This document shows, piece after piece, positions 10,745 through 32,597 of a stretch of 39,126 nt of DNA. The stretch is taken from NCBI GenBank assembly GCA_017656425.1, contig JACDNV010000018.1, positions 1 to 39,126 of the forward strand. The letters are read 5' to 3'. The notes beneath the pieces were generated by a model, which ran no database searches, was not told the DNA's origin, and was given only the letters and a program-made list of their open reading frames with translations. A program made the position numbers and the translations under genes. The DNA comes from Candidatus Neomarinimicrobiota bacterium (GTDB taxonomy: Bacteria > Fidelibacterota > UBA2242 > B5-G15). How positions within the stretch are numbered: position 1 is the stretch's first letter; every line of letters begins with the position of its first letter.

Positions 10745-11700
10745 AGCTTAAAGTACCAGAAAGATTAGTAAAGCCTTTAGATTATTTGTTTATTTTTAGG
10801 CCGACACTATTTTTCCCTGTATGGATAATTACTCTTGCTGGATATTCTGCATTTTTTACTTCTAAAAATGAAACATTGTGGTGGGTTACAAATTTTAACT
10901 TGAAAATAGTTCTAAACTTGCTTTTTGTTACAGTGCTTTCAGGCGCAGTGTTTATCTTTAATCAGTTAAAAGATATTAATACTGATAAGATTAATAAAAA
11001 ATTGTTTTTAGTGTCAGAGCAATACGTAAATCCGGAAACTGCAAGTAAAATTGCGATTATCTCCTTAATAATTTCATATATTTATTTTATTATTACTTTC
11101 CAATTCATCGCTCTGGTCATATTGATTTTGTTTGGTGCTTTATGGGGATATTTTTATAATTTTGAACCTTTCAGACTAAAAGATAGACCAATTCTTGGAT
11201 TTTTTGCTAATATTGGTGGAAGCCTCTTACTTTTTGTTGCTGGCTGGAGCACGGCAGGAGCATTAAATTTCGACACTTTATTATTTTCGGTACCTTATGT
11301 TTTTGCATTAAGTTCTGTAACTCTATTGACAATGCTTCCTGATTATAATGGTGATGCAATATCAGGTAAAAATACATTTCCAGTAAAATATGGTAAAAGT
11401 ATAACAATTTATTTGTCAGTTATTTTTGTATTCCTTGCGCTTATTTTTGGAATTTATGTAGATGATCCTGTTATAAGTCTACCATCTTTACTTTCCATAC
11501 CTCTTTTTGTAATATTATTGTTTAAAAATAATCTACCATCGATATTTCGGTGTATAAGATATCCGATTCTATTTTTGGGGCTTACTTTATGTGTGCAGTT
11601 TCCATATTTCTTTATATTATTAGCATTAAATTACTATCTGTCAAGGATTTATTATACATCAAGATTTAATCTTGATTATCCTACATTTAAAGTTGATTAG
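10741..11700 (+). CDS. UbiA-superfamily prenyltransferase
   Basis: An integral membrane aromatic/lipid prenyltransferase with about nine hydrophobic segments over 319 residues. The first Asp-rich motif is N74-x3-D78-x3-D82 (FNQLKDINTDKINKK) and the second is D201-x3-D205 (LPDYNGDAISGKNTFPVKYG), the Mg-diphosphate sites of the family. Its acceptor could be a quinone head group, a chlorophyll-like ring or (S)-geranylgeranylglyceryl phosphate. The neighbouring ferredoxin and geranylgeranyl-reductase-like protein favour an isoprenoid lipid or a side-chain-hydrogenated quinone. The start overlaps purF. Confidence 0.85.
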   Translation: MKLKVPERLVKPLDYLFIFRPTLFFPVWIITLAGYSAFFTSKNETLWWVTNFNLKIVLNLLFVTVLSGAVFIFNQLKDINTDKINKKLFLVSEQYVNPETASKIAIISLIISYIYFIITFQFIALVILILFGALWGYFYNFEPFRLKDRPILGFFANIGGSLLLFVAGWSTAGALNFDTLLFSVPYVFALSSVTLLTMLPDYNGDAISGKNTFPVKYGKSITIYLSVIFVFLALIFGIYVDDPVISLPSLLSIPLFVILLFKNNLPSIFRCIRYPILFLGLTLCVQFPYFFILLALNYYLSRIYYTSRFNLDYPTFKVD

Positions 11701-11724: not shown

Positions 11725-11916
11725 ATGATTGTTGTAAATGAATCATTGTGTGATCTTTGCGGAACCTGTATAGGAGTATGTCCACAAAACTGCATGGAAC
11801 TTTTTGAGACAAGGATTATCATTGATAATGAAAAGTGTATCGAATGCCTTAATTGTGTTGATATATGTCCATTCCGAGCAATTAATCAACAAAAAGAAGA
11901 GGACGTTAGGGTATGA
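11725..11916 (+). CDS. 2[4Fe-4S] ferredoxin
   Basis: A 63-residue bacterial-type ferredoxin with two complete CxxCxxCxxxCP clusters: CDLCGTCIGVCP near residues 9-20 and CIECLNCVDICP near 37-48. It is small, soluble and cytosolic. A GAGG ribosome binding site precedes the ATG. Its last codons overlap the start of the flavoprotein gene (ATGA), strongly suggesting that it is the dedicated electron donor for that reductase. Confidence 0.94.
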   Translation: MIVVNESLCDLCGTCIGVCPQNCMELFETRIIIDNEKCIECLNCVDICPFRAINQQKEEDVRV

Positions 11917-13100
11917 TCAATAAAGATGTATATGATGTTATTGTTATTGGTGCTGGACCAGCAGGTTCAATGGCGGCTTATTATTCAAAGAAAAATGGTG
12001 CAAATAGTGTTCTTCTTCTCGAAAGGGACCGTGAAATAGGCGTACCTGTGCGATGTGGCGAAGCTGTAAGTGAAATGTCCTTGAAGAAGTTTGTTCCTGA
12101 CATTGACTTTAGGTGGGTTGCAACAATTATTAGTGAGGTGAGATTTGTTTCCCCAAATGGCTATATAGTTGACGCATATATACCAGGTAGAGGATTTATC
12201 CTTAATAGAAGGATTTTTGACCACTACTTGGCTAATGAAGCATCAAATATTGGGGTTGAGGTTTTGACGAGGGCTAATGTCAGAGAGGTTTCGGATTTTG
12301 AGAATGGTTATAGGAATGTATATATAGATGTTTTAGGTGAAAAGTATACAATAAAAGGTAGAATTGTAATTGCTGCAGATGGTGTAGAATCTCGAATAGC
12401 AAGAATGGTTGGTATCAATACATATGTACAAATTAAAGATATGGAATCCTGTGTACAAATGCATTTAGGCAATATTAATGTTAAATCAAATAGGATAGAG
12501 TTTTATCTATCAAAAGAGCTTGCACCAGGTGGCTATCTATGGGTTTTCCCGAAAGGAAAAAGGGATGCGAATGTTGGTCTTGGAATCAGTGGTGATTTTT
12601 CAAATAGCAAACATGCGATAGATTATTTAACCGAATTTGTTAAGAATAGATTTCCGGGTGCATCGATACTAACCATAGTAGCTGGTGGGGTACCATGTAC
12701 TAAACCTCTTGAAAAATTGGTAGGCGACGGATTTATAGTCATTGGAGATGCTGCTAGACAAGTAAATCCTATGACAGGAGGGGGTATATCTCTAGCCTTA
12801 GCATCGGGTAAAATGGCGGGCGAATTAGCTGGTGAGGCAATAAAGGAAAATGATTGTAGTTCAGATTATCTAATGCGTTATCAAAAGAATTGGTTAAAGA
12901 AATATGGAGGTGAACAAAAAAGATATTATAGATTAAAAGAATTTATCAGAACCCTTGAGGATCAAGAACTTGATGATATTGCAAAGAATCTATTCGATAC
13001 GCCACCAGAAAAAGTTACGTTAACAAAAATATTTACCCTTGCAGTTAGACGCAAACCTTCTCTTTTAGTGGATGTAGCGAAAGTGTTTGCTGGATTATAA
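11913..13100 (+). CDS. Geranylgeranyl reductase-family FAD-dependent oxidoreductase
   Basis: The N-terminal FAD dinucleotide fold is YDVIVIGAGPAGSMAAYYSK (residues 7-26), followed by the family block ERDREIGVPVRCGEAVS. The second FAD site is GDGFIVIGDAARQVNPMTGGG. The FixC/ChlP/GGR family saturates isoprenoid double bonds in archaeal lipids, chlorophyll or menaquinone. The family assignment is firm and the substrate is inference. Linkage to a UbiA enzyme and a ferredoxin suggests hydrogenation of a prenyl chain installed by the UbiA protein. At 395 residues it is the normal family length. Confidence 0.88.
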   Translation: MINKDVYDVIVIGAGPAGSMAAYYSKKNGANSVLLLERDREIGVPVRCGEAVSEMSLKKFVPDIDFRWVATIISEVRFVSPNGYIVDAYIPGRGFILNRRIFDHYLANEASNIGVEVLTRANVREVSDFENGYRNVYIDVLGEKYTIKGRIVIAADGVESRIARMVGINTYVQIKDMESCVQMHLGNINVKSNRIEFYLSKELAPGGYLWVFPKGKRDANVGLGISGDFSNSKHAIDYLTEFVKNRFPGASILTIVAGGVPCTKPLEKLVGDGFIVIGDAARQVNPMTGGGISLALASGKMAGELAGEAIKENDCSSDYLMRYQKNWLKKYGGEQKRYYRLKEFIRTLEDQELDDIAKNLFDTPPEKVTLTKIFTLAVRRKPSLLVDVAKVFAGL

Positions 13101-13103
13101 AAA

Positions 13104-15980
13104 ATGGATATAAAATGGGAAGATCTTGGTCTCGAATCCTTTGTTATAATGGATTTTGAGACTACAGGTTTAAATCCCTGTACCGACTCTATAATAGAAT
13201 TTGCCCTTGCAAGGTACGAGAAGGGAGTTCTAAGAGAAAAGTTTTCTTCCCTTTGTAAACCTGATTCTGAAATACCAGAAGAAATAACAAAAATTACCGG
13301 TATTACAAATGATATGGTGAAAAATAAGCCTAACTTTAGAAAATTTGTTAAAGACATTATCGATTTTATTGGATATCAACCAATTATTGGTCATAATATA
13401 TCTTTTGACTTGAGATTTTTTAAAGCACAATTGGATAGGATGAACATAAAAATTGATTTTAGCGACTTTTTAATTATCGATACGTTATTACTTTCAAGGA
13501 CATTTTTATTTTATTTACCAGGATTTAGCCTTTCATCAATTTGTTCAAGTTTAGACATTAAAGGATTTGAGTTTCACGGAGCTGTCGATGATGTAACTGC
13601 AACGGGTGAAATTTTTAGTAGAATAATACCAAGCGTTTTGAGTTTTGAAGAAGATGTGTTGAAAGTTTTATACTATATACTAGAAGATACTAGCGATCCA
13701 CATAAATACTTTTTTAAAAAAATTATTGATTATAGAATCCGAAATAGCTTTATGATTAATCAAAATCATAGCGAATGTGATTGGATAGCGCCTGAAAATA
13801 TTATAGAGAATGATGATAATAACTGTCAACTGTCATCATTGCAGAACGTATATAGTTATTTCAAAAAAGATAGTCAAATAAAGGCACTAATTGAGGGTTT
13901 TGAAGAGAGGGATGAACAAATTTCAATGGTAAATGACATTGTAGATGCACTTGAAAATGAAAAGTTTGCAATAATAGAAGCAGGTACTGGTGTTGGTAAA
14001 AGTTTAGCCTATTTATTGCCAACTCTAATCTGGTCAGGTTTGAATAAAAATGAAAAGGTGGTGATAGCATGTAATACAAAGGCACTACAGGGGCAGCTAT
14101 TTTATAAAGACATGCCAATTCTATTAAAAGACATTAAACTGCCCGGTCGTGCAGTGCTTTTAAAAGGAAGAGGTAATTATATTTGTTTAACGAGGTGGAA
14201 TAGAGTTTTAGACAATTTACAGAGGTATCTAGGAAGCTACAATAGAACCGGAATTTTGCCTATAGTAACTTGGCTTTCAAAAACTAAAACAGGTGATATA
14301 TCAGAAAATTCAGGTTTCTTAAACTCAGATGGATATTCAAATGTCTGGAAGGAGATATGTTCCATGCCCGGCTACTGCACAACCTCTGTTTGCAGTAAAT
14401 ATAATGGCTGTTTTCTGGGGAAGATAAGGCGAAAATTAAATGATTCAAACCTGATAATTGTAAATCATTCACTACTTTTATCTGATACTGGAATGGGTAA
14501 AAAAATTATCCCAGATTATTCTGTGCTTGTTATAGATGAAGCGCATAACCTTGTAAAGAATACCTACGATAGTCTAACCGTTGAGATTTCTCTAAACGAA
14601 ATAAGGAGTTTATTGGATAGAATTTATAATGCCAGAAAAGAAAAACATGGGATACTAGATGAGATAGAAATACTATCAAAAAGAGTAATCTTATCCGATG
14701 AGTACGTTCGCATAGAAAAATATTTTGATAATGCTAAAGATATGATAGATAAATTAAAACCTTTATTTTTTCAACTATTTGCTGAAATGATTGCTGTTGT
14801 TAGAAGGAAGATAGATGATTTTGAAAAATTCCTTTCTTATGGTGATAAAAAAAGATATAAAAGTTTTGTAGATGTCTTTGGCAATCATATAAAAGAAAAA
14901 ATTGATTCCTTAATCTTAGCATCGAGAAATTTATATGAAACCCTTAATAAAATTTATGAGACATTGAATAGTACACTGTTTAAGTTTGGTATTCATGATA
15001 ACGAAATAGTGGTGGAATATAGAAATACCATAGATAACCTTTGTTCATTAGTTGAGGCTATGGAAATAGTAGCGAATGATGAGGCGAGTGAAGATTTTAT
15101 AAAATGGTACTACATAAAAGGAGATGGGAATGAGTATAATCTGAGCCTTAATTATTCAAAATTTGATGTATCAGATTATTTGTATTCAAATCTATTCAAT
15201 GATTTGAAAACGGCAATATTAACATCTGCTACAATCAGAGTTAATAATGAGTTTGAATATTTTCTGGATAGAACTGGTTTGAATAAAATTGATAAAGACA
15301 GGATAATTACAAGTACTATAAGTTCACCCTTTGATTATGAAAATCAACTGGTATTTTTTAGTTATCATAGCGATAAAAACGAACTTAATTCATTAAATGA
15401 GTTATCAAATCTGATAATCGAATTGAGTATTACGTATAGAAAAGGTACACTCGTTCTTTTCACGTCAATAGAAGCGATGAAAAGAGTTTATGATAAAATA
15501 AATTCAATATTATCATCAAATGGAATTGAGGTCCTGGTACAAACAAAACGTATATCAAAGGAGGTTTTACTAGATAGGTTCAGGAGAAATAAAGGATCTG
15601 TGCTACTTGGGACTGATATTTTCTGGGAAGGAATTGATATTGTTGGTGATTCATTACAGATATTGATTATTCAAAAATTACCATTTGATGTACCATCTGA
15701 TCCTTTAGTGGAAGCTTACTGTGAGAAGCTGGAAAAAGATGGCAAAGACTATTTTATTGATTATTATATTCCTGAAGCAATTATTAAATTTAGGCAGGGG
15801 TTTGGAAGACTAATAAGGTCAAAAAGTGATATAGGAATTGTTATTAATTTTGACAATAGAATTGATACGAAATATTACGGTAGATTTTTTAAAGATGCAT
15901 TACCTGTTAAGGTAGTGAAGGTTCGCGGAATCGGAGCAACCTTAGAATTGTCGGGCAGATTTTTTAGCTCTCGGGAATAG
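13104..15980 (+). CDS. dinG: DnaQ-like exonuclease/DinG-type helicase fusion
   Basis: Residues 1-170 are a DEDDh 3'-5' exonuclease: MDFETTGLNP (D17, E19), GHNISFDLRFF, HGAVDDVTATGEIF. Residues about 250-958 are an XPD/DinG superfamily 2 helicase with Walker A EAGTGVGKS (292-300), DEAH box 478-481 and final motif QGFGRLIRSKSDIG. Cysteines 361, 425, 430 and 436 have the C-x63-C-x4-C-x5-C spacing of a helicase [4Fe-4S] cluster, close to E. coli DinG. The Bacillus/Staphylococcus exonuclease-DinG fusions lack a cluster, so this looks like the fusion with an intact iron-sulfur domain. A role in DNA repair or replication-block removal is inferred from the family. Confidence 0.9.
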   Translation: MDIKWEDLGLESFVIMDFETTGLNPCTDSIIEFALARYEKGVLREKFSSLCKPDSEIPEEITKITGITNDMVKNKPNFRKFVKDIIDFIGYQPIIGHNISFDLRFFKAQLDRMNIKIDFSDFLIIDTLLLSRTFLFYLPGFSLSSICSSLDIKGFEFHGAVDDVTATGEIFSRIIPSVLSFEEDVLKVLYYILEDTSDPHKYFFKKIIDYRIRNSFMINQNHSECDWIAPENIIENDDNNCQLSSLQNVYSYFKKDSQIKALIEGFEERDEQISMVNDIVDALENEKFAIIEAGTGVGKSLAYLLPTLIWSGLNKNEKVVIACNTKALQGQLFYKDMPILLKDIKLPGRAVLLKGRGNYICLTRWNRVLDNLQRYLGSYNRTGILPIVTWLSKTKTGDISENSGFLNSDGYSNVWKEICSMPGYCTTSVCSKYNGCFLGKIRRKLNDSNLIIVNHSLLLSDTGMGKKIIPDYSVLVIDEAHNLVKNTYDSLTVEISLNEIRSLLDRIYNARKEKHGILDEIEILSKRVILSDEYVRIEKYFDNAKDMIDKLKPLFFQLFAEMIAVVRRKIDDFEKFLSYGDKKRYKSFVDVFGNHIKEKIDSLILASRNLYETLNKIYETLNSTLFKFGIHDNEIVVEYRNTIDNLCSLVEAMEIVANDEASEDFIKWYYIKGDGNEYNLSLNYSKFDVSDYLYSNLFNDLKTAILTSATIRVNNEFEYFLDRTGLNKIDKDRIITSTISSPFDYENQLVFFSYHSDKNELNSLNELSNLIIELSITYRKGTLVLFTSIEAMKRVYDKINSILSSNGIEVLVQTKRISKEVLLDRFRRNKGSVLLGTDIFWEGIDIVGDSLQILIIQKLPFDVPSDPLVEAYCEKLEKDGKDYFIDYYIPEAIIKFRQGFGRLIRSKSDIGIVINFDNRIDTKYYGRFFKDALPVKVVKVRGIGATLELSGRFFSSRE

Positions 15981-18465: not shown

Positions 18466-19071
18466 GTGATGGTAGTATTATTAACAATATTATGCTTTAT
18501 AAGTGGTGCGGTCCCTTACTCATATATTGTAGGAAAACTGTTTATTAAAAAAGATATTAGAAATTATGGGGATGGCAATCCTGGATCTGCAAATGTTATA
18601 AGGGCTGGTGGATGGTTGATTGGATTGTTAGCAGCGATACTGGATTTTGGTAAGGGATTCATTCCAGTGATAATAATAAAACAGAATATGTCAGATAGTT
18701 CATTGGCGTTAATACCAATACTAATCGCTCCTATTTTAGGTCATGCTTTTACTCCATTTTTGCGTTTCAAAGGGGGTAAAGCAGTAGCTGTTACCTATGG
18801 TGTCTGGATGGCATATACAAATTTTGATGCCCTTCCATTTATTGGAATAAGTATGTTGATTTTTACATCGATACAAAAGCAGGATGCCTGGTCAGTCGTT
18901 GCTGGATTTTTAATCTTTGGGGCATATCCAATTTTTATTATAGGAAATACTGTCGCAATAAGTTTATTTCTAACTAACTTATCTATATTAATATACAAAC
19001 ATTATAAGGACCTTAAAGGTGGAATATTACCAAGGGACTGGGTGACTAAACTCATCGGGGTGGGGAAGTGA
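18466..19071 (+). CDS. plsY: Glycerol-3-phosphate acyltransferase PlsY
   Basis: PlsY acylates glycerol-3-phosphate from acyl-phosphate at the membrane, the first step of phospholipid synthesis. The three family motifs are present: SYIVGKLFIKKDIRNYGDGN, GNPGSANVIRAGG and RFKGGKAVAVTYG. There are about five membrane segments in 201 residues. GTG at 18466 and ATG at 18469 are adjacent candidate starts; both sit unusually close to the GAAAGG at 18461-18466. The stop overlaps the next start (GTGA). Its presence shows that conventional ester lipid synthesis operates whatever the UbiA/GGR cluster makes. Confidence 0.93.
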   Translation: MMVVLLTILCFISGAVPYSYIVGKLFIKKDIRNYGDGNPGSANVIRAGGWLIGLLAAILDFGKGFIPVIIIKQNMSDSSLALIPILIAPILGHAFTPFLRFKGGKAVAVTYGVWMAYTNFDALPFIGISMLIFTSIQKQDAWSVVAGFLIFGAYPIFIIGNTVAISLFLTNLSILIYKHYKDLKGGILPRDWVTKLIGVGK

Positions 19072-20231
19072 GCTCGACTTTACATTTAATAAGTGTTATA
19101 GCATTTCTTTCATCGCTAACCTTTCTACTTATTTCTATCAATAATCTATCAAATTTTAGAAGACTTGGCGAGTACAGACTGGTAAAAAGTTTGCCAAGAC
19201 TATCTGTCTTAATTCCTGTACGGAATGAGGAAGAAAAAATCGAAAAATGTGTATTAAGCATTTTGAATCAGGATTATCCTGACTTTGAAGTAATAGTTTT
19301 GCTTGATAATTGTGAAGATAAAACTGAAGAAATATTGCATGATATTGCAAAAAAATATAAAAATTTAAAGATAATAAAAGGTCAGCCTTTGCCAGAAGGA
19401 TGGTATGGAAAACACTGGGCATGTTTTCAATTGACAAATTATGCTAATGGTGATCTTCTGCTATTTACAGATGCTGATACGGTTTATAAAAGAAAAAATA
19501 CTTTAAAGCTTGCAGTATCAGCACTTATTAAAGAGAATGCAGACTTATTAACTGGGCTACCAAAGGAAGAAGCATATTCCTTTTCAGAAAAGTTAGCGAT
19601 ACCATTTATCTCCTTTGGAATTCATACGATAGTGCCTATAAAATTGATATCAAAAATGAAAAGCCCGATAGCTACTGTTACCATTGGCCAATTTATGCTA
19701 TTCCGCAGAGAGGTACTTGAAGATATTGGAGGATTTGAAAGCGTTAGGGATGAGATAGCAGATGATATTGCCCTAGGAAGAAAAATAAAAGAATACGGAT
19801 ACAAGTGGTATTTTATTGATATCAGTGATCATGTAAGCTGCAGAATGTATGAGGACTTAAAAAGTGTATTTCACGGTTTTGGAAAAAATTTATTTGGAGT
19901 TTTTAATTATAAAATTCTTACTTACTTCTTGGTATGGACTTTTGTCGCAGTAGTATTTCTTTGTCCTATATATATAATTGCATTGAAATTTTTAAAATAT
20001 ACAATAACTAAATCTGTCCTATATTACTCACTGGGGACTTTGACTGCGCTCTCCATTACCTTTTATATCCCTTATAATAGATTTAAATATTCCACAAGCC
20101 TGATTCTTCTATATCCAATTACTGTTACAATATGGATTCTAATGGCATTTTACTCATTTTATTCAACTATTGCTGGTAAAGCAGCTTGGAAAGGTAGAAA
20201 AGTCCTGAAACACGAAGTCCGCTGGCTATAG
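19068..20231 (+). CDS. Family 2 glycosyltransferase (CrtQ/HpnB-like)
   Basis: An N-terminal membrane segment (about residues 5-25) precedes a GT-A domain: LSVLIPVRNEEEKIEKCVLS, VIVLLDNCEDKT and the metal-binding LLLFTDADTVYK (DxD). The block LPEGWYGKHWACFQ is typical of the hopene- or carotenoid-associated GT2 group (HpnB, CrtQ). The DEIADDIALGRKIKEYG stretch supplies the catalytic Asp region. The C-terminus has three or four membrane helices. The acceptor is unknown; an isoprenoid or membrane lipid is plausible given the family and the nearby UbiA/GGR genes. The GTG start overlaps the plsY stop. Confidence 0.85.
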   Translation: MSSTLHLISVIAFLSSLTFLLISINNLSNFRRLGEYRLVKSLPRLSVLIPVRNEEEKIEKCVLSILNQDYPDFEVIVLLDNCEDKTEEILHDIAKKYKNLKIIKGQPLPEGWYGKHWACFQLTNYANGDLLLFTDADTVYKRKNTLKLAVSALIKENADLLTGLPKEEAYSFSEKLAIPFISFGIHTIVPIKLISKMKSPIATVTIGQFMLFRREVLEDIGGFESVRDEIADDIALGRKIKEYGYKWYFIDISDHVSCRMYEDLKSVFHGFGKNLFGVFNYKILTYFLVWTFVAVVFLCPIYIIALKFLKYTITKSVLYYSLGTLTALSITFYIPYNRFKYSTSLILLYPITVTIWILMAFYSFYSTIAGKAAWKGRKVLKHEVRWL

Positions 20232-20240
20232 CCATAAGCG

Positions 20241-21230
20241 ATGGGCAAAAATTTTATTTCTCTTGATATAGAAAAAAATTTATGGCAAAAAGGATATAAA
20301 CATATTGCTGGTGTTGACGAGGCAGGTAGGGGACCTCTTGCCGGACCTGTAGTAGCCGCTGCTGTAGTCTTTGACCACGATGAATACATAGAAGGTGTAA
20401 ATGATTCAAAAAAATTAAACCCAAAACGAAGAGAAGAGCTTTTTGAGGAAATTACAACTAAAGCACTTACCTACGGTATAGGTGTTGTTGATAATAATGA
20501 GATTGATAGAATAAATATTTTACAGGCTACACATAAAGCTATGCGAAAAGCACTTGGTAGTCTAAAACTGAAAATAGATTATATAATAGTTGATGGTTAT
20601 GGACTACCCGAGAAAATTTATCCTCAGAAAGCTATACACGGTGGAGATAAACTGTCCTTTACAATAGCATCAGCTTCAATTCTTGCAAAGGTTTTTCGTG
20701 ACAGATTAATGAGAGAATATGACAAAATTTTTCCTGAATATGGTTTTGGAAAACATATGGGTTATGGGACTAAGGAGCACATTGAAGCAATTAAAAAGCA
20801 TAATCCAAGTCCCATTCATAGAAAATCTTTTTCCAGAGTTAAGGAATATTTGAATAACATTTATAAGAATAATAAAACCATTGGTAAATATGGTGAGCAA
20901 CTTGCAGTGAAATATTTATTCGACAAAGGTTTTAATATTATAAAAAGGAATTACAGAGTGGGAACATTGGGAGAGATTGATATAATAGCACAAAAGGATG
21001 AATGTATATATTTTGTGGAGGTCAAGACCCAACTTAGTGATAGATTTGGTCCTGCTGAGTTTCGTGTCGACGAAATTAAACAGTCTCAAATAGCAAAAAT
21101 AGCCGAACAATTTTTATTTGAACAAAGATATAAAACAAATCTTGATGTTAAATTTTCTGTCATTGCCATCGATCTGAAAAATAAAATTGAAAAAATAAGA
21201 TTCTATCCTAATGCCTTTATAATAGAATAG
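20241..21230 (+). CDS. rnhB: Fused ribonuclease HII - YraN (UPF0102) endonuclease-like protein
   Basis: Residues 1-205 are RNase HII, which cleaves RNA in RNA-DNA duplexes: GVDEAGRGPLAGP (D26, E27), IIVDGYGLP (D118) and AKVFRDRLM (D154). Residues about 212-329 are a complete UPF0102/YraN domain: GKYGEQLAVKYLFDKGF, GEIDIIAQ (E245, D247) and FVEVKTQ (E260, K262), the PD-(D/E)xK-like nuclease core. The two are usually separate, often adjacent, genes of about 200 and 120 residues. Here they form one 329-residue open frame with a short Asn/Lys-rich linker. The ATG lacks a strong ribosome binding site and lies 9 nt after the glycosyltransferase. Confidence 0.93.
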   Translation: MGKNFISLDIEKNLWQKGYKHIAGVDEAGRGPLAGPVVAAAVVFDHDEYIEGVNDSKKLNPKRREELFEEITTKALTYGIGVVDNNEIDRINILQATHKAMRKALGSLKLKIDYIIVDGYGLPEKIYPQKAIHGGDKLSFTIASASILAKVFRDRLMREYDKIFPEYGFGKHMGYGTKEHIEAIKKHNPSPIHRKSFSRVKEYLNNIYKNNKTIGKYGEQLAVKYLFDKGFNIIKRNYRVGTLGEIDIIAQKDECIYFVEVKTQLSDRFGPAEFRVDEIKQSQIAKIAEQFLFEQRYKTNLDVKFSVIAIDLKNKIEKIRFYPNAFIIE

Positions 21231-21399: not shown

Positions 21400-22971
21400 A
21401 TGAAACACATTGGACTGGGAAAAATCAGTTATATAACAGTAGTGATAATAATTATTTCATTATGGCAGATGTTAATAGGGGATTCTGCCTATATTTATCT
21501 TGATAGTACAAAACAGGTAATCCAGGGATTTGGTGCAGCAAATATACAACCATGGCGTCCTGATATGACTGATGAAGAGATAGAAAAGGCTTTTGGTACA
21601 GGTGAGGGGCAACTTGGATTTACGATATTGCGAATTAGAGTACCGAATGACGAAGATCAGTTTAGTATGAATGTCAGAACAGCGAAGGCTGCCTATGAAA
21701 GAGGAGTGAAAATTATTGCATCACCATGGTCACCCCCAGCCTATATGAAAAGTAATAACAATGTAGTTGGTGGTAGACTTCTTGATGAATATTACGATGA
21801 CTTTGCAGAGTATTTAAAATCCTTTGCTGAATATATGGCTGAGAATGGTGCCCCACTATATGCTATTTCAATTCAAAATGAGCCAGATATAAAAGTAGGA
21901 TATGAATCATGCGATTGGACAGCAAGTGATATGGTAAAGTTTTTAAGGGAAAATGTTTCCATAATCAGATCGGAAGGTGTAAAAATTATGGCTCCTGAAT
22001 CTTATCAATTTAGAAGAGAAATGTCAGATCCAATATTAAATGATTCTCTGGCATGTGCAAATTTGGATATAGTCGCAGGACATATTTATGGGGGTGGAAT
22101 TGCTCCCTATCCTCTTGCAGAGGAGAAAGGAAAAGAAATATGGATGACTGAATATCTGATTAATAGCGGTAGTGAACCTACTGATACTGGAATTGATACT
22201 GGTTGGGCTGGTGCGATGCAAACCGCAAAGAGTATCCAGAGCTGTATGAATGTCGGTATGAGTGCTTATGTTTGGTGGTATATTGTTAGATACTATGGCC
22301 CTATTTCTGATGGAACTTTCGTTCCCAGAGGGAAGATTACAAAAAAGGGTTACGTGATGTCGCAATTTTCAAGGTTTATACGACCAGGGTACAGACGAGT
22401 TTACTCTACCTATATACCTCAGAGAGATGTATTTGTAACTTCTTATAAAGGCGATTCGATAAATAATAAAATTATAATTGTCGCTATAAATTCAGGTAGC
22501 GAAGATAAGCAACAAGATTTTATTATTAAAGATGGTATAGTATCAAAATTTACACCGTTCACAACATCCAGCGGTAAAAATTGCGAAAGAGGTGAAGATA
22601 TAATGGTAACTGATAGCGCATTTTCTATAACCCTTCCGGCATCCAGTATTACCACGTTTGTTTCTGATGAGATAAGGGATGGTATTGTGGAAAACAGAAA
22701 TGTATTGAATGAATTTCACCTATTTCAAAATTATCCAAATCCCTTTAATTCAGTTACGAAGATAAGGTATTCCGTTCTTGATAAGTGTTATGTTAAGTTA
22801 AAATTGTATAATTTATTAGGTAAAGAAGTTTGTACAATATTTGATGGTTTATCGAATAGTGGAACTTATGAAGTAATACTGGATGGGTCTAGCCTTGAAA
22901 GTGGTGTTTATATTTATACAATGGAACTTAATGGTAAAAAAGTATCAAAAAAATTATTGTTGATTAAATAA
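21400..22971 (+). CDS. GH30 glucuronoxylanase-like hydrolase with T9SS sorting domain
   Basis: The signal anchor (about residues 8-28) is followed by a GH30 (beta/alpha)8 barrel starting QVIQGFGAANIQPW. The acid/base is E161 (ISIQNEPD) and the nucleophile E251 (IWMTEYL). The loop WWYIVRYYGP...KKGYVMSQFSRFIRPGY closely resembles subfamily 8 xylanases (XynC/XynA). One arginine of the usual IRRSYGP is kept and the first is Val here. A beta-sandwich follows. Residues about 435-523 are a type A sorting domain (HLFQNYPNPFNSVTKIRYS...), predicting type IX secretion. Subfamily 8 enzymes cut xylan next to methylglucuronic acid branches; whether this one needs the branch is uncertain. An AGGAGG ribosome binding site precedes the ATG. 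Confidence 0.92.
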   Translation: MKHIGLGKISYITVVIIIISLWQMLIGDSAYIYLDSTKQVIQGFGAANIQPWRPDMTDEEIEKAFGTGEGQLGFTILRIRVPNDEDQFSMNVRTAKAAYERGVKIIASPWSPPAYMKSNNNVVGGRLLDEYYDDFAEYLKSFAEYMAENGAPLYAISIQNEPDIKVGYESCDWTASDMVKFLRENVSIIRSEGVKIMAPESYQFRREMSDPILNDSLACANLDIVAGHIYGGGIAPYPLAEEKGKEIWMTEYLINSGSEPTDTGIDTGWAGAMQTAKSIQSCMNVGMSAYVWWYIVRYYGPISDGTFVPRGKITKKGYVMSQFSRFIRPGYRRVYSTYIPQRDVFVTSYKGDSINNKIIIVAINSGSEDKQQDFIIKDGIVSKFTPFTTSSGKNCERGEDIMVTDSAFSITLPASSITTFVSDEIRDGIVENRNVLNEFHLFQNYPNPFNSVTKIRYSVLDKCYVKLKLYNLLGKEVCTIFDGLSNSGTYEVILDGSSLESGVYIYTMELNGKKVSKKLLLIK

Positions 22972-22982
22972 ATGGAGGGGAT

Positions 22983-25307
22983 ATGTCTGAGGTTAACAGG
23001 AGATTATCAATTATTTTAATTTTTTTAACGCTATTTATCACAGGAATTGATGCTCGATCCCCATCTTTTGAAACTTTTGTAAATCCTGTTATCCCTGGTG
23101 ATCATCCAGATCCAACTTTAACTAAAATTGGAAATTATTTTTATACCTCTGGCTCTTCATTTAATCCAACGCCAATAATATATAGGTCAACAGATCTTGT
23201 GCATTGGGAGGCGATAGCAAGGCCCGTATCAGCATCCTGGAGCGAATATGGTGATGAGCCCGGTTTGGGTATCTGGGGAGGACATATAGTTTATTACAAT
23301 GGATATTACTGGCATTTCTTCTGTCGACAAGGCAGGGGATTTTTCTATGTTAAAGCTGAAAAACCTGAAGGTCCCTGGAGTAAACCAGTACAGGTCAATT
23401 GTCCTCCTGGGGTACCTGGGCTGGGATACGATAACTCAATTTTCATTGATGATAATGGGAAATGGTATCTGCTTGTAAAAAATGGGCAAGTGAATAACTG
23501 GATTGTCGAGCTCGGTCCTGATGGACAACCAAAAGGTTCAATACTGGATTTGACATGGCTTAATCCCGCTCCAAATTATCCATATAGTTGGGCAGAAGGC
23601 CCTGTGATGTGGAAGTATAACGGATATTATTATTACAGTTTTGCTTTGAATCTGGCTGGTGGTCAGAAAACAATGAGGAGTCCTACTTTGACAGACGATT
23701 CAATTTCGTGGGAAATGCTCGGTGATTTTTTTAAGGATAAAGGATCAAATCCAGCTTTATTTTCCGGACCAAATCACGCATCTCCAGTCGTTACACTTAA
23801 TGATGGTACACATTGGGTTATGTATCATGCGTATAATACATCAAATAGTAGCGAGTGGTATGGACATGGTAGGCAGGGGCTATTGAGTCAGGTAAGATAT
23901 GATGAAGAAGGAAGGCCAGTAGCGGATTATCCAATAAACGCTCCCTTACCAGCACCCAATTTACCAAGCAGTGGTATTCCCTGGATGGTACCAAAATCCG
24001 ATTTTTTTGAATCTGATGAACTAAATCCCGAATGGTCTATACTCGGATATACCGAAGCAAATAAGATATCTCTACAGGAAAGAGCTGGCTGGTTACGTTT
24101 ATATCCAAAAAGCCTCACAAAAGCAACTACAGTTATAAAGAATGATGGAGAAAGAAATTATTCTCTAATGACAAGAATAGATTTTAATCCCATGACATCA
24201 GATGATGAAGCAGGGTTATGGATTATAAATGGTCCGGAGACAAAATATGTAAAACTCTGTGTTTCAGAGAATGATCAAAATAAAGATGTTATACGTTTTT
24301 CATTTGAATACAATAACACGAAATATGAGGTTATTAAAGAGAAAACAGGACCTGTTTGGTTAAAGTTATACAGGGATAATCATATAGTTACAGCTTATTA
24401 TAGCTATGATACAATAAACTGGACTGAGGTTGGAGAACCAATTGATATAACTGTATTGGATAGAGGTGAACCAGAAAATAGTTTTAATAAATTTACAGGG
24501 AATAGACAGGGGTTGTTTGTTATAGGTAGGAACAGCGCTGATTTTGATTGTTACATATATAGAGATGCATATTCTCCTATACTTGCAGAGGCTCCAGCCA
24601 ATTGGTATGGTATAAAAAGGGAAGCAGTCGGTGGAAAATATGTTCTTAGTGGAATTGAGATTGGCGATTGGGCTTTGTATGCAGGAGTTGAGTTTGGTGG
24701 AAGACAGGAATATCCAAAAAAGCCACTTGCAGTAGAGGTAGAAGCTTCAAGTGCTACATCAGGTGGTACCATCGAGATGTGGTTGGATTCAATTGATACC
24801 GGAAATAAGATTGCAGAAGTAACTGTAGAAAATACTGGAGATTGGACTACCTTTAAAAAATTCAGAACTAATATTAACTCTGATATCAGTGGTAGGCATG
24901 ATCTATATTTGAGATTTACTGGCGGTAAAGATGAATTATTAAAGTTAAAAAGTATAGTTTTTATTTCCGATTCTTCTGTTGCTATTGACGAGCAAAGCTC
25001 AAGCCATGTACCGGACGGTTTTTCTCTATACCAGAACTATCCAAACCCATTTAACTCATCAACAACTATTGAATTTTCACTCCCAGTCAGTGGTTATGTA
25101 GAAATATCAATTTATGATATAGCCGGAAAAGAGATATATAAAACTGAGAAAAAACACTTAAATCATGGCCTTTATAGAGTAATCTGGCCGGATGGACGAT
25201 ATAAAGAAATTTTATCATCAGGTATTTATTTTTACAGACTAAGAGTGTATAGAGATAACAACAATTTAATTTTTAGCGATGTAAGAAAGATGGCATATAT
25301 AGAATAG
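22983..25307 (+). CDS. GH43 family glycoside hydrolase with C-terminal modules and T9SS sorting domain
   Basis: Signal peptide about residues 8-24. The GH43 five-bladed propeller spans about 32-335: general base D43 (HPDPT), pKa modulator D150 (GYDNSIFIDD) and general acid E205 (WAEGPVMW). Residues about 345-560 form a GH43 C-terminal beta-sandwich (DFFESDELNPEWSILG). Residues about 575-695 look like a CBM6-type domain (VEVEASSATSGGTIEMWLDS...GDWTTFKKFRT). The last 75 residues are a NYPNPFNSSTTIEFSLP sorting domain. At 774 residues this is a multi-module secreted beta-xylosidase or alpha-L-arabinofuranosidase; activity cannot be separated by eye. A GGAGGGG ribosome binding site lies just upstream. 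Confidence 0.92.
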   Translation: MSEVNRRLSIILIFLTLFITGIDARSPSFETFVNPVIPGDHPDPTLTKIGNYFYTSGSSFNPTPIIYRSTDLVHWEAIARPVSASWSEYGDEPGLGIWGGHIVYYNGYYWHFFCRQGRGFFYVKAEKPEGPWSKPVQVNCPPGVPGLGYDNSIFIDDNGKWYLLVKNGQVNNWIVELGPDGQPKGSILDLTWLNPAPNYPYSWAEGPVMWKYNGYYYYSFALNLAGGQKTMRSPTLTDDSISWEMLGDFFKDKGSNPALFSGPNHASPVVTLNDGTHWVMYHAYNTSNSSEWYGHGRQGLLSQVRYDEEGRPVADYPINAPLPAPNLPSSGIPWMVPKSDFFESDELNPEWSILGYTEANKISLQERAGWLRLYPKSLTKATTVIKNDGERNYSLMTRIDFNPMTSDDEAGLWIINGPETKYVKLCVSENDQNKDVIRFSFEYNNTKYEVIKEKTGPVWLKLYRDNHIVTAYYSYDTINWTEVGEPIDITVLDRGEPENSFNKFTGNRQGLFVIGRNSADFDCYIYRDAYSPILAEAPANWYGIKREAVGGKYVLSGIEIGDWALYAGVEFGGRQEYPKKPLAVEVEASSATSGGTIEMWLDSIDTGNKIAEVTVENTGDWTTFKKFRTNINSDISGRHDLYLRFTGGKDELLKLKSIVFISDSSVAIDEQSSSHVPDGFSLYQNYPNPFNSSTTIEFSLPVSGYVEISIYDIAGKEIYKTEKKHLNHGLYRVIWPDGRYKEILSSGIYFYRLRVYRDNNNLIFSDVRKMAYIE

Positions 25308-25337
25308 GGTTAAGCTTAAAAGGATTATTAATATATA

Positions 25338-26576
25338 ATGGAAAAAGTGATTAAGTTGATTAATGTAATCCTGATTATTACATTCCTTCCTGTTTCAAAA
25401 TTACACACCCAGCAGTTATTTTCGCATAATGATCTGGAAAATTACGGTATAGAATGTTCTGAACCACCTTTACTATCTATTGATGAGCTATCTATTATAG
25501 AATCTTTGCCTGATCTATTTGAATGGTCTGACGGAAGTGGAAGGATAAACAAAATCAGTGAATGGCGTTGTCGAAGAGCAGAAATAGTCGAAGAAATACA
25601 GCATTACCAGTTAGGTTATAAACCGCCTCCCCCTGATGCTCTGATTGCAACATTTACACCTGGTGATAGTACTATACGGCTTTCAGTTATTGATAACAAT
25701 GATACATTAAATTTAACCGCATATGTATTTTATCTTCCCTCCGGTAAAGGTCCTTTCCCTGCGATAATTCTTACAGGTGGATTCCCGACTATTCCTTTAA
25801 AGTTTTTTACTTCACGAAACATAGTAGTAGTGTCTTTTAGATGGTGGGAACTTGCTCCATGGCAGAGAAATTCACGTTCCGAAGGAGCATTTTTTCAATT
25901 TTACCCAGAACTGCAATACGCAGGAAGTATGCTGGCATGGGCATGGGGTGTAAGTAGATTAATAGATGCTATTTATGAATTACCAGAACTTAAGGTAGAT
26001 ACTGCAAAAATTGGGGTGACCGGTTGTTCGTTTGCCGGCAAGATAGCAATATATTCTGCAGTTCTTGATGAGAGGATTGCCCTTACAATAGCACAGGAGC
26101 CTGGGTGCGGAGGAAGTGCTTCATGGAGGGTCGCAGAAGTTTTACCGGGTTCAAGAGAAAAACTGAGCAATGCTTTATGGGCTGGATGGTATCACCAAAA
26201 CCTTGGGCAGTTCAGTTCATGTGTAACGAAACTTCCATACGATCACCATGAAGTAATGGGTGCTATAGCACCACGACCATTATTAGTATTGGGTAATCCT
26301 GATTTCGAATGGCTTGCAGAGGAAGCAACGTATGTAGCATGTAAAGCCACTAAAGAGATATATAGAGCTCTTGGAGTTCCCGATAGATTTGGATTTTCAC
26401 AGGCAGGAGGGCATGATCACTGTGCACTGCCAGAAAGCCAGTATTCGGAAGTTGAAGCATTCCTTGATAAGTTTTTACTAGATATTAATTCAGTAAATAC
26501 AGATATAGAAAAAACCCCTTATAATGATATTGATTTATCTGAATGGATAAAATGGGATACACCAACATTAAAATGA
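25338..26576 (+). CDS. CE15 glucuronoyl esterase-like protein
   Basis: CE15 enzymes cleave the ester between lignin alcohols and the methylglucuronic acid branches of xylan. A signal peptide (about 1-24) is followed by an alpha/beta hydrolase. The nucleophile is S231 in GVTGCSFAGK, the QEPGCGGSASWR block (253-264) is the family QESGAGGAACWR equivalent, and the His is in AGGHDHCALP. In canonical CE15 the nucleophile motif is GCSRxGK, with an arginine in the oxyanion region; here that residue is Phe232. There is no sorting domain, so it is probably periplasmic. It lies between two GH43 genes. Confidence 0.88.
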   Translation: MEKVIKLINVILIITFLPVSKLHTQQLFSHNDLENYGIECSEPPLLSIDELSIIESLPDLFEWSDGSGRINKISEWRCRRAEIVEEIQHYQLGYKPPPPDALIATFTPGDSTIRLSVIDNNDTLNLTAYVFYLPSGKGPFPAIILTGGFPTIPLKFFTSRNIVVVSFRWWELAPWQRNSRSEGAFFQFYPELQYAGSMLAWAWGVSRLIDAIYELPELKVDTAKIGVTGCSFAGKIAIYSAVLDERIALTIAQEPGCGGSASWRVAEVLPGSREKLSNALWAGWYHQNLGQFSSCVTKLPYDHHEVMGAIAPRPLLVLGNPDFEWLAEEATYVACKATKEIYRALGVPDRFGFSQAGGHDHCALPESQYSEVEAFLDKFLLDINSVNTDIEKTPYNDIDLSEWIKWDTPTLK

Positions 26577-26769
26577 AGTTGTAGATAGACTGATTGAACT
26601 TGATGATTTTCACCAGTTCGAAACTATTTTTATCTATTCTATAAAGAAACAAACATGGGATCGTTTCTGGTAATTTGTTTTTAATTTTACAGAATTAAAA
26701 ATATGATTTTACAATTACAAAGAATATTTTATAGTTTCAGTAGCAGTAGGAATTAAAGGAGGGGGTTTT

Positions 26770-28674
26770 ATGTTACTTAAGATAAAGAATATTAAAGTTT
26801 TAAATAATATTTTTGCTAAATTGGTCAGTAATACGTTAATTCTTACCATTACCGTACTCAGCGGTTCCACTTCAGAAATATCTCCAAAAGCACATAACCC
26901 AATAATATGGGCTGATGTACCAGACCCATCGGTCATAACAGTAGATAGTTGCTATTATATGAGCAGTACAACAATGCATATGTGTCCAGGTGTTCCTATA
27001 ATGAAGTCGAAAGATCTCGTAAACTGGGAAATTGTAAACTACGTTTATGATACACTTTCAAACAGTGATGAAATGAATCTAGAAAATGGTAAAAATGCAT
27101 ATGGTAAGGGTTCATGGGCAAGCTGTCTAAGATATCATAATGGTTTCTTTTACTTAGTAACATTCTCTTACACAACCAATAAAACATATATCTTTAAAAC
27201 TGATGATATAGAAAATGGAGTTTGGGAACGTAGCATAATTAATCAGGTTTGCCATGATCCATCTTTACTATTCGATGATGATGGTAAAGTTTATCTAGTT
27301 TATGGAATCGATAATATAAAAGTACTAGAACTAACGGAGGATGTTACAGCAATTAAGCATGGTGGATTGAATAGGACCATAATAGAAAGTGCAAGTAAGA
27401 TTGCGGGAACTGAATTTTACGTTGCGGCAGAAGGTTCTCATATCCATAAAATAAGAGGTAAATATTATATATTTTTGATTTCATGGCCAAAGGGTGGAAT
27501 GAGAACGCAACTTGTATTTCGTTCAGAAAGAATTACGGGTCCATACGAAGGAAAAATTGCATTAAAATATGAAGGCATTGCCCAGGGAGGCTTAGTAGAA
27601 AGTATTGATGGAAAGTGGTATGCTCTTTTGTTCCAGGATCATGGCTCTGTTGGTAGAATTCCTTGTCTCGTTCCTGTCACTTGGGAAAATGGTTGGCCTG
27701 TATTTGGTATCAAAGGTAAAGTACCCACTGAGCTGGACATCCCAGTGAAAAATGATAGTATACCTAAAATTGTATCTTCTGATGATTTCGAATGGACGGA
27801 AAAGATGCCCCTTGTATGGCAATGGAATCACAATCCAGACAACCGTTATTGGTCAACCAAACAGCGCCCTGGTTACCTGAGACTAATTAATGGAAGAGTA
27901 GATAGAGATTTTACAGAAACTAGGAATACACTTACACAAAGAACTTTTGGTCCCAGGTGCTCTGGAGAAATCAAAATGGATACAAGGAATATGAAAGATG
28001 GTGATATAGCAGGTTTAGGATTATTGCAGGAGATTTATGGCTTTGTCGCAGTTAGAAGAGATGGCGAAATAAAAAATATTGTAATGGTTAATTCCAGCGC
28101 CGGGAGGCCTGAGATTGTCGAAAGTGTACTTTTAGAGCAAGACACAGTGTTTTTGAGGGTATCATGCGATTTAGAAAACAGGTCAGATAGTGCTTATTTT
28201 TATTATAGTTTGGACGGAGTAAAGTGGATTGAAATAGGAAATATTCTTAAAATGGAATATAGACTTTCACACTTTATGGGATATAAGTTTGCGTTGTTCA
28301 ATTATGCTACAAAAAGCACGGGTGGTTATGTGGATTTTGATTTTTTTCATATCGATGATTCGTTAACCAAGCTAAGCGAGGTAGAAGAGCAAGGTTATTA
28401 CATCCCGGATAGATTTAATTTGTATCCCAATTATCCAAATCCATTCAATACTAACACTGTGATTTGCTATCAATTGCCAGAGAAATCAGGGTTGAATATA
28501 AAGGTCACTGATATTTTGGGACAGGAGGTATGCACATTATTTGAAGGCATTAGAGAGCCCGGGATTTATGAGATTACATTAGATAGTCGTAACCTAACAA
28601 GCGGTGTATATTTTTTCCAGTTAAGAACAAACAATAACTTTGTTATAACGAGGAAATTCCTTGTATTGAAGTAA
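26770..28674 (+). CDS. GH43 (subfamily 12-like) hydrolase with T9SS sorting domain
   Basis: After an N-terminal hydrophobic signal (about residues 10-32), the GH43 domain starts NPIIWADVPDPSV with general base D52. The block YYMSSTTMHMCPGVPIMKSK is highly typical of GH43 subfamily 12 arabinofuranosidases/xylosidases. D163 (CHDPSLLFDD) and E221 (AAEGSHIHKI) complete the active site. Residues about 340-540 form the GH43 C2-type beta-sandwich (DDFEWTEKMPLVWQWNHNPD). Residues about 550-634 are the NYPNPFNTNTVICYQLP sorting domain. It probably removes arabinose or xylose branches outside the cell. A very strong AGGAGGGGG site precedes the ATG. The 193-nt gap before it holds nothing I can name. Confidence 0.92.
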   Translation: MLLKIKNIKVLNNIFAKLVSNTLILTITVLSGSTSEISPKAHNPIIWADVPDPSVITVDSCYYMSSTTMHMCPGVPIMKSKDLVNWEIVNYVYDTLSNSDEMNLENGKNAYGKGSWASCLRYHNGFFYLVTFSYTTNKTYIFKTDDIENGVWERSIINQVCHDPSLLFDDDGKVYLVYGIDNIKVLELTEDVTAIKHGGLNRTIIESASKIAGTEFYVAAEGSHIHKIRGKYYIFLISWPKGGMRTQLVFRSERITGPYEGKIALKYEGIAQGGLVESIDGKWYALLFQDHGSVGRIPCLVPVTWENGWPVFGIKGKVPTELDIPVKNDSIPKIVSSDDFEWTEKMPLVWQWNHNPDNRYWSTKQRPGYLRLINGRVDRDFTETRNTLTQRTFGPRCSGEIKMDTRNMKDGDIAGLGLLQEIYGFVAVRRDGEIKNIVMVNSSAGRPEIVESVLLEQDTVFLRVSCDLENRSDSAYFYYSLDGVKWIEIGNILKMEYRLSHFMGYKFALFNYATKSTGGYVDFDFFHIDDSLTKLSEVEEQGYYIPDRFNLYPNYPNPFNTNTVICYQLPEKSGLNIKVTDILGQEVCTLFEGIREPGIYEITLDSRNLTSGVYFFQLRTNNNFVITRKFLVLK

Positions 28675-30642
<1,968 letters not shown>

Positions 30643-30653
30643 AGGAGTATAAA

Positions 30654-32597
30654 ATGCTGGGAAGGTATTTCAATTTGTCAGTTGTAGTTTTATTGACTTT
30701 ACTCTCGAATAAGGATTTGTGCTCAAAAACTTATATAGTAAGGAGTCCAAATCAAAAGATATCAGTTTCATTCTGGCTTACTGAACAGGGGGAACCTGTA
30801 TATTCCGTCTCTCACTCTGGTACTCCGGTCCTTCGAGAATCAAGATTAGGACTAATCAGAAGTGATGAAGACTTTTCACGAAATCTATTTTTGGATTCAG
30901 TTTCAAATGAAATTATAGTTAAAGATAAATACACCCTTTTACACGGCAAGAAATCAACTTGCTATTATGAGGGCATAAAGAGAATATTCTATCTAAAAAG
31001 TAAGAATTTAAAGCCCATGGAAATTATTTTTCAGGTCTCAAATGATGGCGTGGCATTCAGATATCACTTCCCCGATAAAACTGAAGACAAAGTGAAAATT
31101 TATAAAGAAGTATCTTCATTTCATTTTGATACATCGGCAAAAGCATTTTTACAGCCCTGTCCAGATGCTCGTACCGGCTGGTGTTTTACCCAACCATCAT
31201 ATGAAGAATACTATCAAATTGAAATACCTGTTGGAACTCCAGCACCTTTTCAAGCAGGATGGGTAATGCCTGCGCTATTTAATTATGGAAAGTACTGGAT
31301 ATGTATCACAGAAACCGCGGTGGATACGAATTATTGTGGATCTCGTTTAAGTCAATTCTCTCCAGATGGGGAGTACTCTATTCAATTTCCTCAACCTCAA
31401 GAACGAAGAAATGACGAACCCTATTTACCAGAATCGCCTCTCACTTGGTATACACCATGGAGAATAGTTGCAGTTACGGATAATCTAGGTGACCTTGTAG
31501 AATCAACAATTGGGACTGATCTTGCTAGTCCCGCACAATATGATGTTTCTTCATGGTTAAAACCTGGTATTGCTTCATGGAGTTGGGTGATTCTGAAAGA
31601 TGATTCTACAATTTATAGAGTTCAAAAAAGATATATTGACTTTGCAGCATCAATGGGATGGAAATATTGCCTCATAGATGCATTCTGGGATAGGCAAATA
31701 GGATATGACAAAATAAAAGAACTTGCAAAATACGCAAAAAACAAGAATGTAAAAATTCTTTTATGGTACAACTCGGCTGGAGACTGGAATACCACAAACT
31801 TAACACCTCGTAATAAATTACTTACAAGAGAATCAAGAGTGAAAGAATTTCAAAAGTTAAAAGAGATGGGAGTAGCTGGTATAAAAGTTGATTTCTTCGG
31901 TGGAGACGGACAATCGATGATGAAGTATTATATTGATATACTAAAGGATGCTGCAAAATTTAATCTTGCGGTAAACTTTCACGGGTGCACCTATCCCAGA
32001 GGCTGGCACAGAACATATCCTAATTTGGTAAGTATGGAGGCGATAAAAGGCGAAGAATATGTGACATTCGATCAGTATTTTGCAGATAATCAACCATGGC
32101 ATTGCACGGTTATTCCTTTTACCCGAAATCTTTTCGATCCGATGGATTTTACGCCTGTGAATTTTTCAGGTATACCCAATATTAAACGTAGAACAACAAA
32201 AGGTTTTGAAATAGCCTTGTCGGTACTGTTCACATCTGGAATTCAACATATTGCGGAAACTCCCCGGGGAATGTCAGCTCAGAAAAACTTTATAAAAAAA
32301 TTCATGAGTACTTTACCCACAAGCTGGGACGATGTGAAATTTATTGATGGTTATCCAGGTAAGTTTGTTGTGCTGGCAAGAAGGAAAGGTGATATGTGGT
32401 ATATAGCAGGGATCAATGACGAAGAAAAAGAACGAACGATTGAATTAAAACTTCAATTTATCAACAAAAAGTCAAAGGGACTTTTGATTACTGATTCTAA
32501 AGATGGAAAATGGCTTGTGAAACGTCATATAGATTTGTCGAAATCACAAAAGATAAAAGTGGTTCCTTATGGTGGGTTTGTAATAAAAACGTTTTGA
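30654..32597 (+). CDS. GH97 family glycoside hydrolase
   Basis: GH97 enzymes are alpha-glucosidases or alpha-galactosidases of FCB bacteria. The N-terminal beta-super-sandwich starts VRSPNQKISVSFWL after a signal peptide. The catalytic barrel has KPGIASWSWV, GWKYCLIDAFWD, KILLWYNSAGDW and GVAGIKVDFFGGDGQ. Asp413 in the last motif sits where retaining members such as the Bacteroides alpha-galactosidase BtGal97b have their nucleophile, so a retaining mechanism is likely. SMEAIKGEE supplies later acidic residues. I start at 30654 because GGAG (30644-30647) is ideally spaced; an in-frame ATG at 30639 would overlap the preceding stop and lack a site. No sorting domain. Confidence 0.9.
   Translation: MLGRYFNLSVVVLLTLLSNKDLCSKTYIVRSPNQKISVSFWLTEQGEPVYSVSHSGTPVLRESRLGLIRSDEDFSRNLFLDSVSNEIIVKDKYTLLHGKKSTCYYEGIKRIFYLKSKNLKPMEIIFQVSNDGVAFRYHFPDKTEDKVKIYKEVSSFHFDTSAKAFLQPCPDARTGWCFTQPSYEEYYQIEIPVGTPAPFQAGWVMPALFNYGKYWICITETAVDTNYCGSRLSQFSPDGEYSIQFPQPQERRNDEPYLPESPLTWYTPWRIVAVTDNLGDLVESTIGTDLASPAQYDVSSWLKPGIASWSWVILKDDSTIYRVQKRYIDFAASMGWKYCLIDAFWDRQIGYDKIKELAKYAKNKNVKILLWYNSAGDWNTTNLTPRNKLLTRESRVKEFQKLKEMGVAGIKVDFFGGDGQSMMKYYIDILKDAAKFNLAVNFHGCTYPRGWHRTYPNLVSMEAIKGEEYVTFDQYFADNQPWHCTVIPFTRNLFDPMDFTPVNFSGIPNIKRRTTKGFEIALSVLFTSGIQHIAETPRGMSAQKNFIKKFMSTLPTSWDDVKFIDGYPGKFVVLARRKGDMWYIAGINDEEKERTIELKLQFINKKSKGLLITDSKDGKWLVKRHIDLSKSQKIKVVPYGGFVIKTF

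Follow-up and report, generated by a model that had tools for sequence, protein, structure and literature searches.

A phylum-wide RNase HII-YraN fusion protein and decay of its YraN half alongside loss of competence genes

Introduction

What does an RNase HII do in one polypeptide with a YraN domain? The question is raised by an rnhB::yraN fusion gene in the window, i.e. the whole 39,126-nucleotide stretch of DNA that was analysed here. RNase HII introduces nicks where ribonucleotides occur in DNA. In natural transformation, ComEC mediates uptake of single-stranded DNA, DprA loads RecA, and ComM migrates branches. UPF0102/YraN is a widespread family, yet it has long been termed "uncharacterised". 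A 2024 preprint by Hardy et al. reportedly deals with ComM-YraN in natural transformation.

The YraN family has been placed among predicted PD-(D/E)XK endonucleases (PMC1189080). Another paper names YraN a "helicase-associated nuclease" beside ComM, on the strength of that 2024 preprint (PMC12455585). In a study of Antarctic metagenomes, a UPF0102 protein that had been purified bound DNA and showed no nuclease activity (PMC10140301). A first-pass annotation of the window proposed that the two fused halves act in one process, perhaps ribonucleotide removal or branched-DNA processing. A gene fusion alone is no proof of a shared biochemical pathway. We followed each half of the protein, together with the competence genes, through a phylum sample of 245 genomes.

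Results

The fusion gene and its two domains

The fusion gene lies at positions 20241-21230 on the + strand. It is a single open frame with an ATG start and no internal stop, and it encodes 329 aa. The RNase HII domain covers aa 23-199 (20307-20837, + strand; Pfam PF01351, E 2.8e-43, 148.6 bits vs. a curated cut-off of 25.8), and the YraN/UPF0102 PD-(D/E)XK domain covers aa 218-310 (20892-21170, + strand; PF02021, E 3.7e-21, 75.7 bits vs. a curated cut-off of 23.6). They are joined by a short linker, aa 200-217 (20838-20891, + strand), whose length is tightly conserved in relatives as judged by the spacing of H193 and A222. The N-terminal half also exceeded the cut-off of the NCBIfam ribonuclease HII model NF000594 (281.9 vs. 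243 bits). The fusion did not reach the cut-offs of NCBIfam YraN models NF009154 (85.3 vs. 109 bits), NF009150 (75.9 vs. 81 bits) and TIGR00252 (57.2 vs. 69.05 bits); these models are narrow and do not define the UPF0102 domain. Searches against solved structures gave RNase HII entries for the first half (best E 1.7e-52; Thermotoga 2etj and 3o3g among the closest) and UPF0102 protein RPA0323 (3fov) for the YraN half (E 4.7e-7). An AlphaFold model of the fusion from single sequence had a pLDDT of 41 and was set aside.

The RNase HII half has residues D26, E27, D118 and D136 as well as GRG, the ribonucleotide-recognition motif (G29-R30-G31); these D-E-D-D and GRG columns were kept in 186-188 of 188 proteins from relatives. 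The YraN half has E219, G244-E245, D247 and E260-V-K262; its PD-(D/E)XK core, D247 ... E260-x-K262, is complete. The catalytic roles given to these residues follow what is established for both families and an alignment to the Thermotoga RNase HII. The fusion thus has the full domain and all catalytic residues of a bacterial RNase HII, and differs from it by an added C-terminal nuclease-type domain. With YraN/UPF0102 proteins it shares the domain, over the Pfam cut-off, and the G-E-x-D ... E-x-K core. The statement in the first-pass annotation that both domains are catalytically complete within one open frame was borne out.

The genome of the window has no UPF0102 gene besides the fusion. It has two RNase HII matches, one to the fusion and one to a divergent protein of 472 aa encoded on contig C12. 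This second RNase HII-clan protein (C12:31636-33054; L023 1240-2658) carries CxxC in its C-terminal part and a "DETGKGE" motif, which we take to be as in RNase HIII. Searches of 60 further relatives gave no second RNase HII match in any of them.

Distribution of the fusion

A UPF0102 match over the cut-off was present in 139 of the 245 phylum genomes, and in 134 of these 139 the frame containing it was 309 aa or longer. The five exceptions were four contig ends (G021, G151, G194, G059) and one split frame (G074). Intact YraN cores were found in 131 proteins. In 126 of these, the frame also encodes the complete set of four RNase HII residues; the remaining five were these same exceptions. The spacing between H193 and A222 was 30-33 residues in 129 of the 130 proteins scored.

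Outside the phylum, UPF0102 was found in 11 of 12 named genomes (11 with Bacteroidota-type titles and one Clostridium MAG), always in frames of 121-195 aa; in the fusion, by contrast, YraN sits behind RNase HII. Monoglobus and Ruminococcus albus have rnhB and yraN as separate neighbouring genes, with a 15-bp gap and a 26-bp overlap. Gene order in these pairs is the same as in the fusion; they differ from it in encoding two proteins, in lying behind lepB and ylqF, and in having no comEC in the stretch. In the Antarctic study, all five UPF0102 genes on Dry Valley contigs (5/5) lie beside RNase HII (PMC10140301). The earlier remark that rnhB and yraN are often neighbours agrees with these cases.

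Because other phyla carry rnhB and yraN as separate genes, two adjacent genes could have been united artificially, through an error of sequencing or assembly, and a missed stop or frameshift near codon 205 had been named as a concern. However, 134 phylum genomes have the same fusion, and the junction has the same length in 129 of 130 proteins. This conservation refutes the artefact, whose probability is next to nil, and a missed stop or frameshift is excluded. These findings indicate that the fusion is old and present across its phylum. The component families are known; a phylum-wide fusion with traceable decay of one half is new. No paper on an RNase HII-YraN fusion was found in the literature, as judged by excerpts and abstracts, and UniProt-like databases may well list the architecture.

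State of the YraN core in relatives

RNase HII matches were present in 200 of the 245 phylum genomes, exceeding UPF0102 matches, and ~20 genomes had RNase HII in a >300-aa frame with no UPF0102 match over the cut-off. We assembled a census set of 202 genomes having the locus, chosen by an RNase HII or YraN match; it includes G194 and G059, in which YraN lies at a contig end without an RNase HII match. The other side of this choice is that 45 of the 245 genomes had no RNase HII match, and retention of RNase HII is stated here for the scored set. Loci were fetched for 193 of the 200 RNase HII genomes. The seven unfetched ones (G085, G089, G092, G094, G096, G097, G098), with frames of 182-192 aa, were entered as YraN absent. 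G195 was dropped (a weak match of 22.4 bits in a 443-aa frame, with no fusion-like protein). YraN was classed by thresholds of our own, i.e. a tail of at least 60 aa and D/E/K at the three alignment columns D247/E260/K262.

The YraN core was intact in 130 of the 202 genomes; 33 had a tail with a broken core, 34 had no tail, and 5 were cut by a contig end and left uncounted in the comparisons below. The RNase HII D/E/D/D residues were complete in 187 protein rows and never substituted, the 13 other rows being cut or containing X; within the scored set, G202 had a stop in the RNase HII frame. Single-residue core lesions were found in YraN domains that still scored strongly: D247N in G032, G131, G132 and G192, E260K in G108, and E260G in G191. 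Genus g65 contains both states. G189 and G190 are ComM-positive with intact cores; G191 and G192 are ComM-negative, each with a different single core change. Further same-genus contrasts were found in g22, g43, g62, g32 and g27.

Two other accounts of the broken cores were rejected. Whole-genome searches revealed no second YraN replacing the broken fused copy in those genomes. Misalignment of the motifs was considered for tails with a loose D..E-x-K pattern; on inspection by eye, none restored the core in the right place.

Association of YraN with competence genes

We searched the 245 genomes for ComM (TIGR00368), ComEC (PF03772) and DprA (PF02481). ComM was scored positive at E<=1e-30, a threshold that admits three partial matches scoring less than the curated cut-off (G107, G227, G033); ComEC and DprA were scored positive at E<=1e-10. 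All 118 assessable ComM-positive genomes had an intact YraN core vs. 12 of 79 ComM-negative genomes, the latter comprising 12 intact, 33 degenerate and 34 absent cases (Fisher's test, 1.2e-40, ignoring descent). Corresponding values were 116/116 vs. 14/81 for ComEC and 115/116 vs. 15/81 for DprA. With the comparison restricted to genomes of >=90% completeness and <=5% contamination, all 72 carrying at least one of the three genes had an intact YraN vs. 0 of the 16 that carried none. The genome of the window has ComEC, DprA and ComM.

To take descent into account, we built a 191-row tree in which only the RNase HII half was used; on it, the YraN state changes at least 16 times. For any competence gene, supported branches gave 9 independent pairs, typically 7 in the same direction, 0 opposite and 2 without change (median p 0.016). 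ComM alone gave 13 pairs (~6 the same way, 0 opposite, 7 without difference; median p 0.031), and ComEC alone gave 12 pairs (~5 the same way, 0 opposite; median p 0.0625).

Of the 12 ComM-negative genomes with intact YraN, 8 have ComEC and/or DprA, and ComM may therefore be absent from the assembly only. The other four (G111, G117, G024, G148), which are 65-77% complete, have intact YraN without any of the three genes. Conversely, G192 has a broken YraN and yet a DprA; that DprA contains an internal stop. Separately, ComM, ComEC or DprA was broken by stops or split while YraN was intact in G118 (C2), G190 (C145/C254), G184 (C45/C95) and G042 (C6/C16), which possibly represents early competence loss.

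ComM, ComEC and DprA were lost together in the phylum, and the phylum census thus does not single out the partner of YraN. A distinction between ComM and the other two is possible only in the 14 control genomes: YraN and ComM occurred in the same 8, and ComEC and DprA in 10, the two extra genomes being those of B. subtilis and L. lactis, without YraN and ComM. This pattern agrees with a published account in which ComM is canonical in Gram-negative bacteria and RadA has a role in Firmicutes (PMC11612176).

Homology and selection in broken tails

The idea that the degenerate tails are unrelated sequence was rejected; beyond the single-residue lesions, they are far decayed but in most cases still recognisable. 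Among 34 examined, 27 matched the intact-tail profile at E<1e-3, and shuffled tails scored at most 12.5 bits (955 of 1020 shuffles reported). Tails of family f14 gave a profile-profile match with a probability of 97.9.

The median ratio of dN in the tail to dN in the RNase HII half was 2.74 for broken tails (64 pairs) vs. 1.55 for intact ones (990 pairs), the pairs being non-independent. In the closest usable pairs (G205/G203, G198/G201, G198/G200), omega was 0.23-0.40 for broken tails and 0.06-0.08 for RNase HII; dS was high or saturated in most other pairs. In these closest pairs, the broken tails are under relaxed, non-neutral constraint. Broken-core tails of ~103-127 aa stand behind an intact RNase HII in 33 genomes (L069-L097 and others) and are possible pseudonucleases.

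Genome context of the fusion

Two genes precede the fusion in the window on the + strand: a plsY-like gene (18466-19071; encodes a glycerol-3-phosphate acyltransferase, PF02660) and a gene for an HpnB-like family 2 glycosyltransferase (19068-20231; PF00535, TIGR03469 below its cut-off), which ends 9 bp before the fusion. Elsewhere in the phylum, both comEC and the YraN part were located in 118 genomes, and in 61 of these comEC lies upstream of the YraN part, no more than 4.5 kb away and in the same orientation (three of the 61 were placed by the RNase HII half only). In the remaining genomes, the two were on one contig but apart (7) or on different contigs (50), contig breaks included. Among seven loci inspected along with comEC, three have overlapping comEC and fusion frames, by 22 bp in G134, 10 bp in G037 and 25 bp in G221. 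The spacing is ~134 bp in G106 and ~387 bp in G019, and two other frames lie between comEC and the fusion in G001 and G034. For G001, which was the only further genome of the window's family to be searched, position, size and sequence start give the order comEC, plsY-like, glycosyltransferase-like, fusion. The window has the order plsY-glycosyltransferase-fusion (18466-21230), and comEC of the same genome lies away from the fusion on contig C14, still preceded by the same kind of upstream gene. The comEC-plsY-glycosyltransferase-fusion block therefore appears to have been split between comEC and plsY in this genome. No paper on a pairing of rnhB with comEC was found in the literature, as judged by abstracts.

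Discussion

The fusion probably joins a housekeeping RNase HII to a putative transformation/recombination nuclease, YraN, the presumed partner of ComM. The RNase HII half would perform ribonucleotide excision or RNA removal as elsewhere. The YraN half may cut or trim branched DNA (a D-loop or three-way junction) of the kind expected to arise during ComM-driven branch migration of incoming DNA, and such trimming could lead to longer recombined tracts. The short linker of fixed length and the operon would place both nucleases beside the DNA-entry machinery. The reason for fusing might, as a guess, be co-translation with comEC and a common workplace. We propose that loss of competence either turns the YraN half into a non-catalytic tail under weak constraint or leads to its removal. 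Co-occurrence of YraN with ComM is shared with ComM-YraN of natural transformation; the difference is that YraN is here fused to RNase HII, often directly behind comEC.

Because YraN is fused to RNase HII, the locus persists once YraN is no longer needed, and breakage of the active site, residue by residue, becomes visible alongside competence-gene loss. The census thereby supports a role of YraN in transformation, as independent backing. The stepwise decay is an independent, phylum-scale argument for the job of YraN in DNA uptake and recombination; its pattern points to ComM and ComEC as working partners and supplies clean residues.

The proposal that both halves serve one ribonucleotide-excision or R-loop process, in which RNase HII nicks ribonucleotides and YraN trims the resulting flap, draws on the fusion itself, the tight linker, and the adjoining of separate rnhB and yraN in Clostridia and on Dry Valley contigs (PMC10140301). 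However, 66 assessable genomes without ComM, ComEC and DprA retain RNase HII with the YraN half lost or broken, and in no protein complete enough to score was an RNase HII catalytic residue substituted. Since RNase HII is kept while YraN is broken, ribonucleotide removal presumably continues there without YraN activity. The census speaks against a need of YraN activity for the cellular work of RNase HII and already disfavours the one-process proposal, which we consider highly improbable. Of the two processes named in the first-pass annotation, ribonucleotide removal suits the RNase HII half alone; branched-DNA processing is fair for the YraN half, provided that YraN works with the ComM branch-migration helicase.

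YraN decay might instead reflect general genome reduction or fast evolution, with the competence link as a by-product of many joint losses. The biggest block of losses does fall in small-genome lineages (family f9, 0.4-1.0 Mb), and the co-loss comparison covers three competence genes only. Nevertheless, the RNase HII half of the same polypeptide stays undecayed, losses also occurred in genomes of ordinary size and 97% completeness (G032, 2.1 Mb; G108, 2.2 Mb) beside intact congeners, and the independent pairs ran 7:0. Such an origin is distinctly unlikely. It is also rather unlikely that the fusion is a putative dual-nuclease part of the DNA-uptake machine, made with ComEC, in which RNase HII would police ribonucleotides or RNA in the newly integrated heteroduplex, YraN and ComM would extend and resolve the joint, and dead tails would be kept after competence loss as a non-catalytic DNA-binding or stabilising module of RNase HII. 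The figures behind the retained module are the 33 genomes with full-length broken-core tails and the omega of ~0.2-0.4 in the closest pairs. The joining of a housekeeping RNase HII to the putative partner nuclease of ComM remains our preferred explanation.

Other genes in the window

Upstream of the fusion, positions 13104-15980 encode a 958-aa protein resembling DnaQ exonuclease and DinG helicase. This gene directly precedes a DPP IV-like peptidase gene, which in turn precedes the plsY-like gene. A UbiA-type prenyltransferase (10741-11700) adjoins a geranylgeranyl-reductase-family protein (11913-13100) that scores well on digeranylgeranylglycerophospholipid reductase models, below their cut-offs; the pair might belong to archaeal-type isoprenoid lipid genes. 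Downstream, positions 21400-32597 encode polysaccharide enzymes (GH30, two GH43 with C-terminal Por_Secre_tail sorting domains, a glucuronyl-esterase-like protein, and GH97), a run that looks like a hemicellulose utilisation block.
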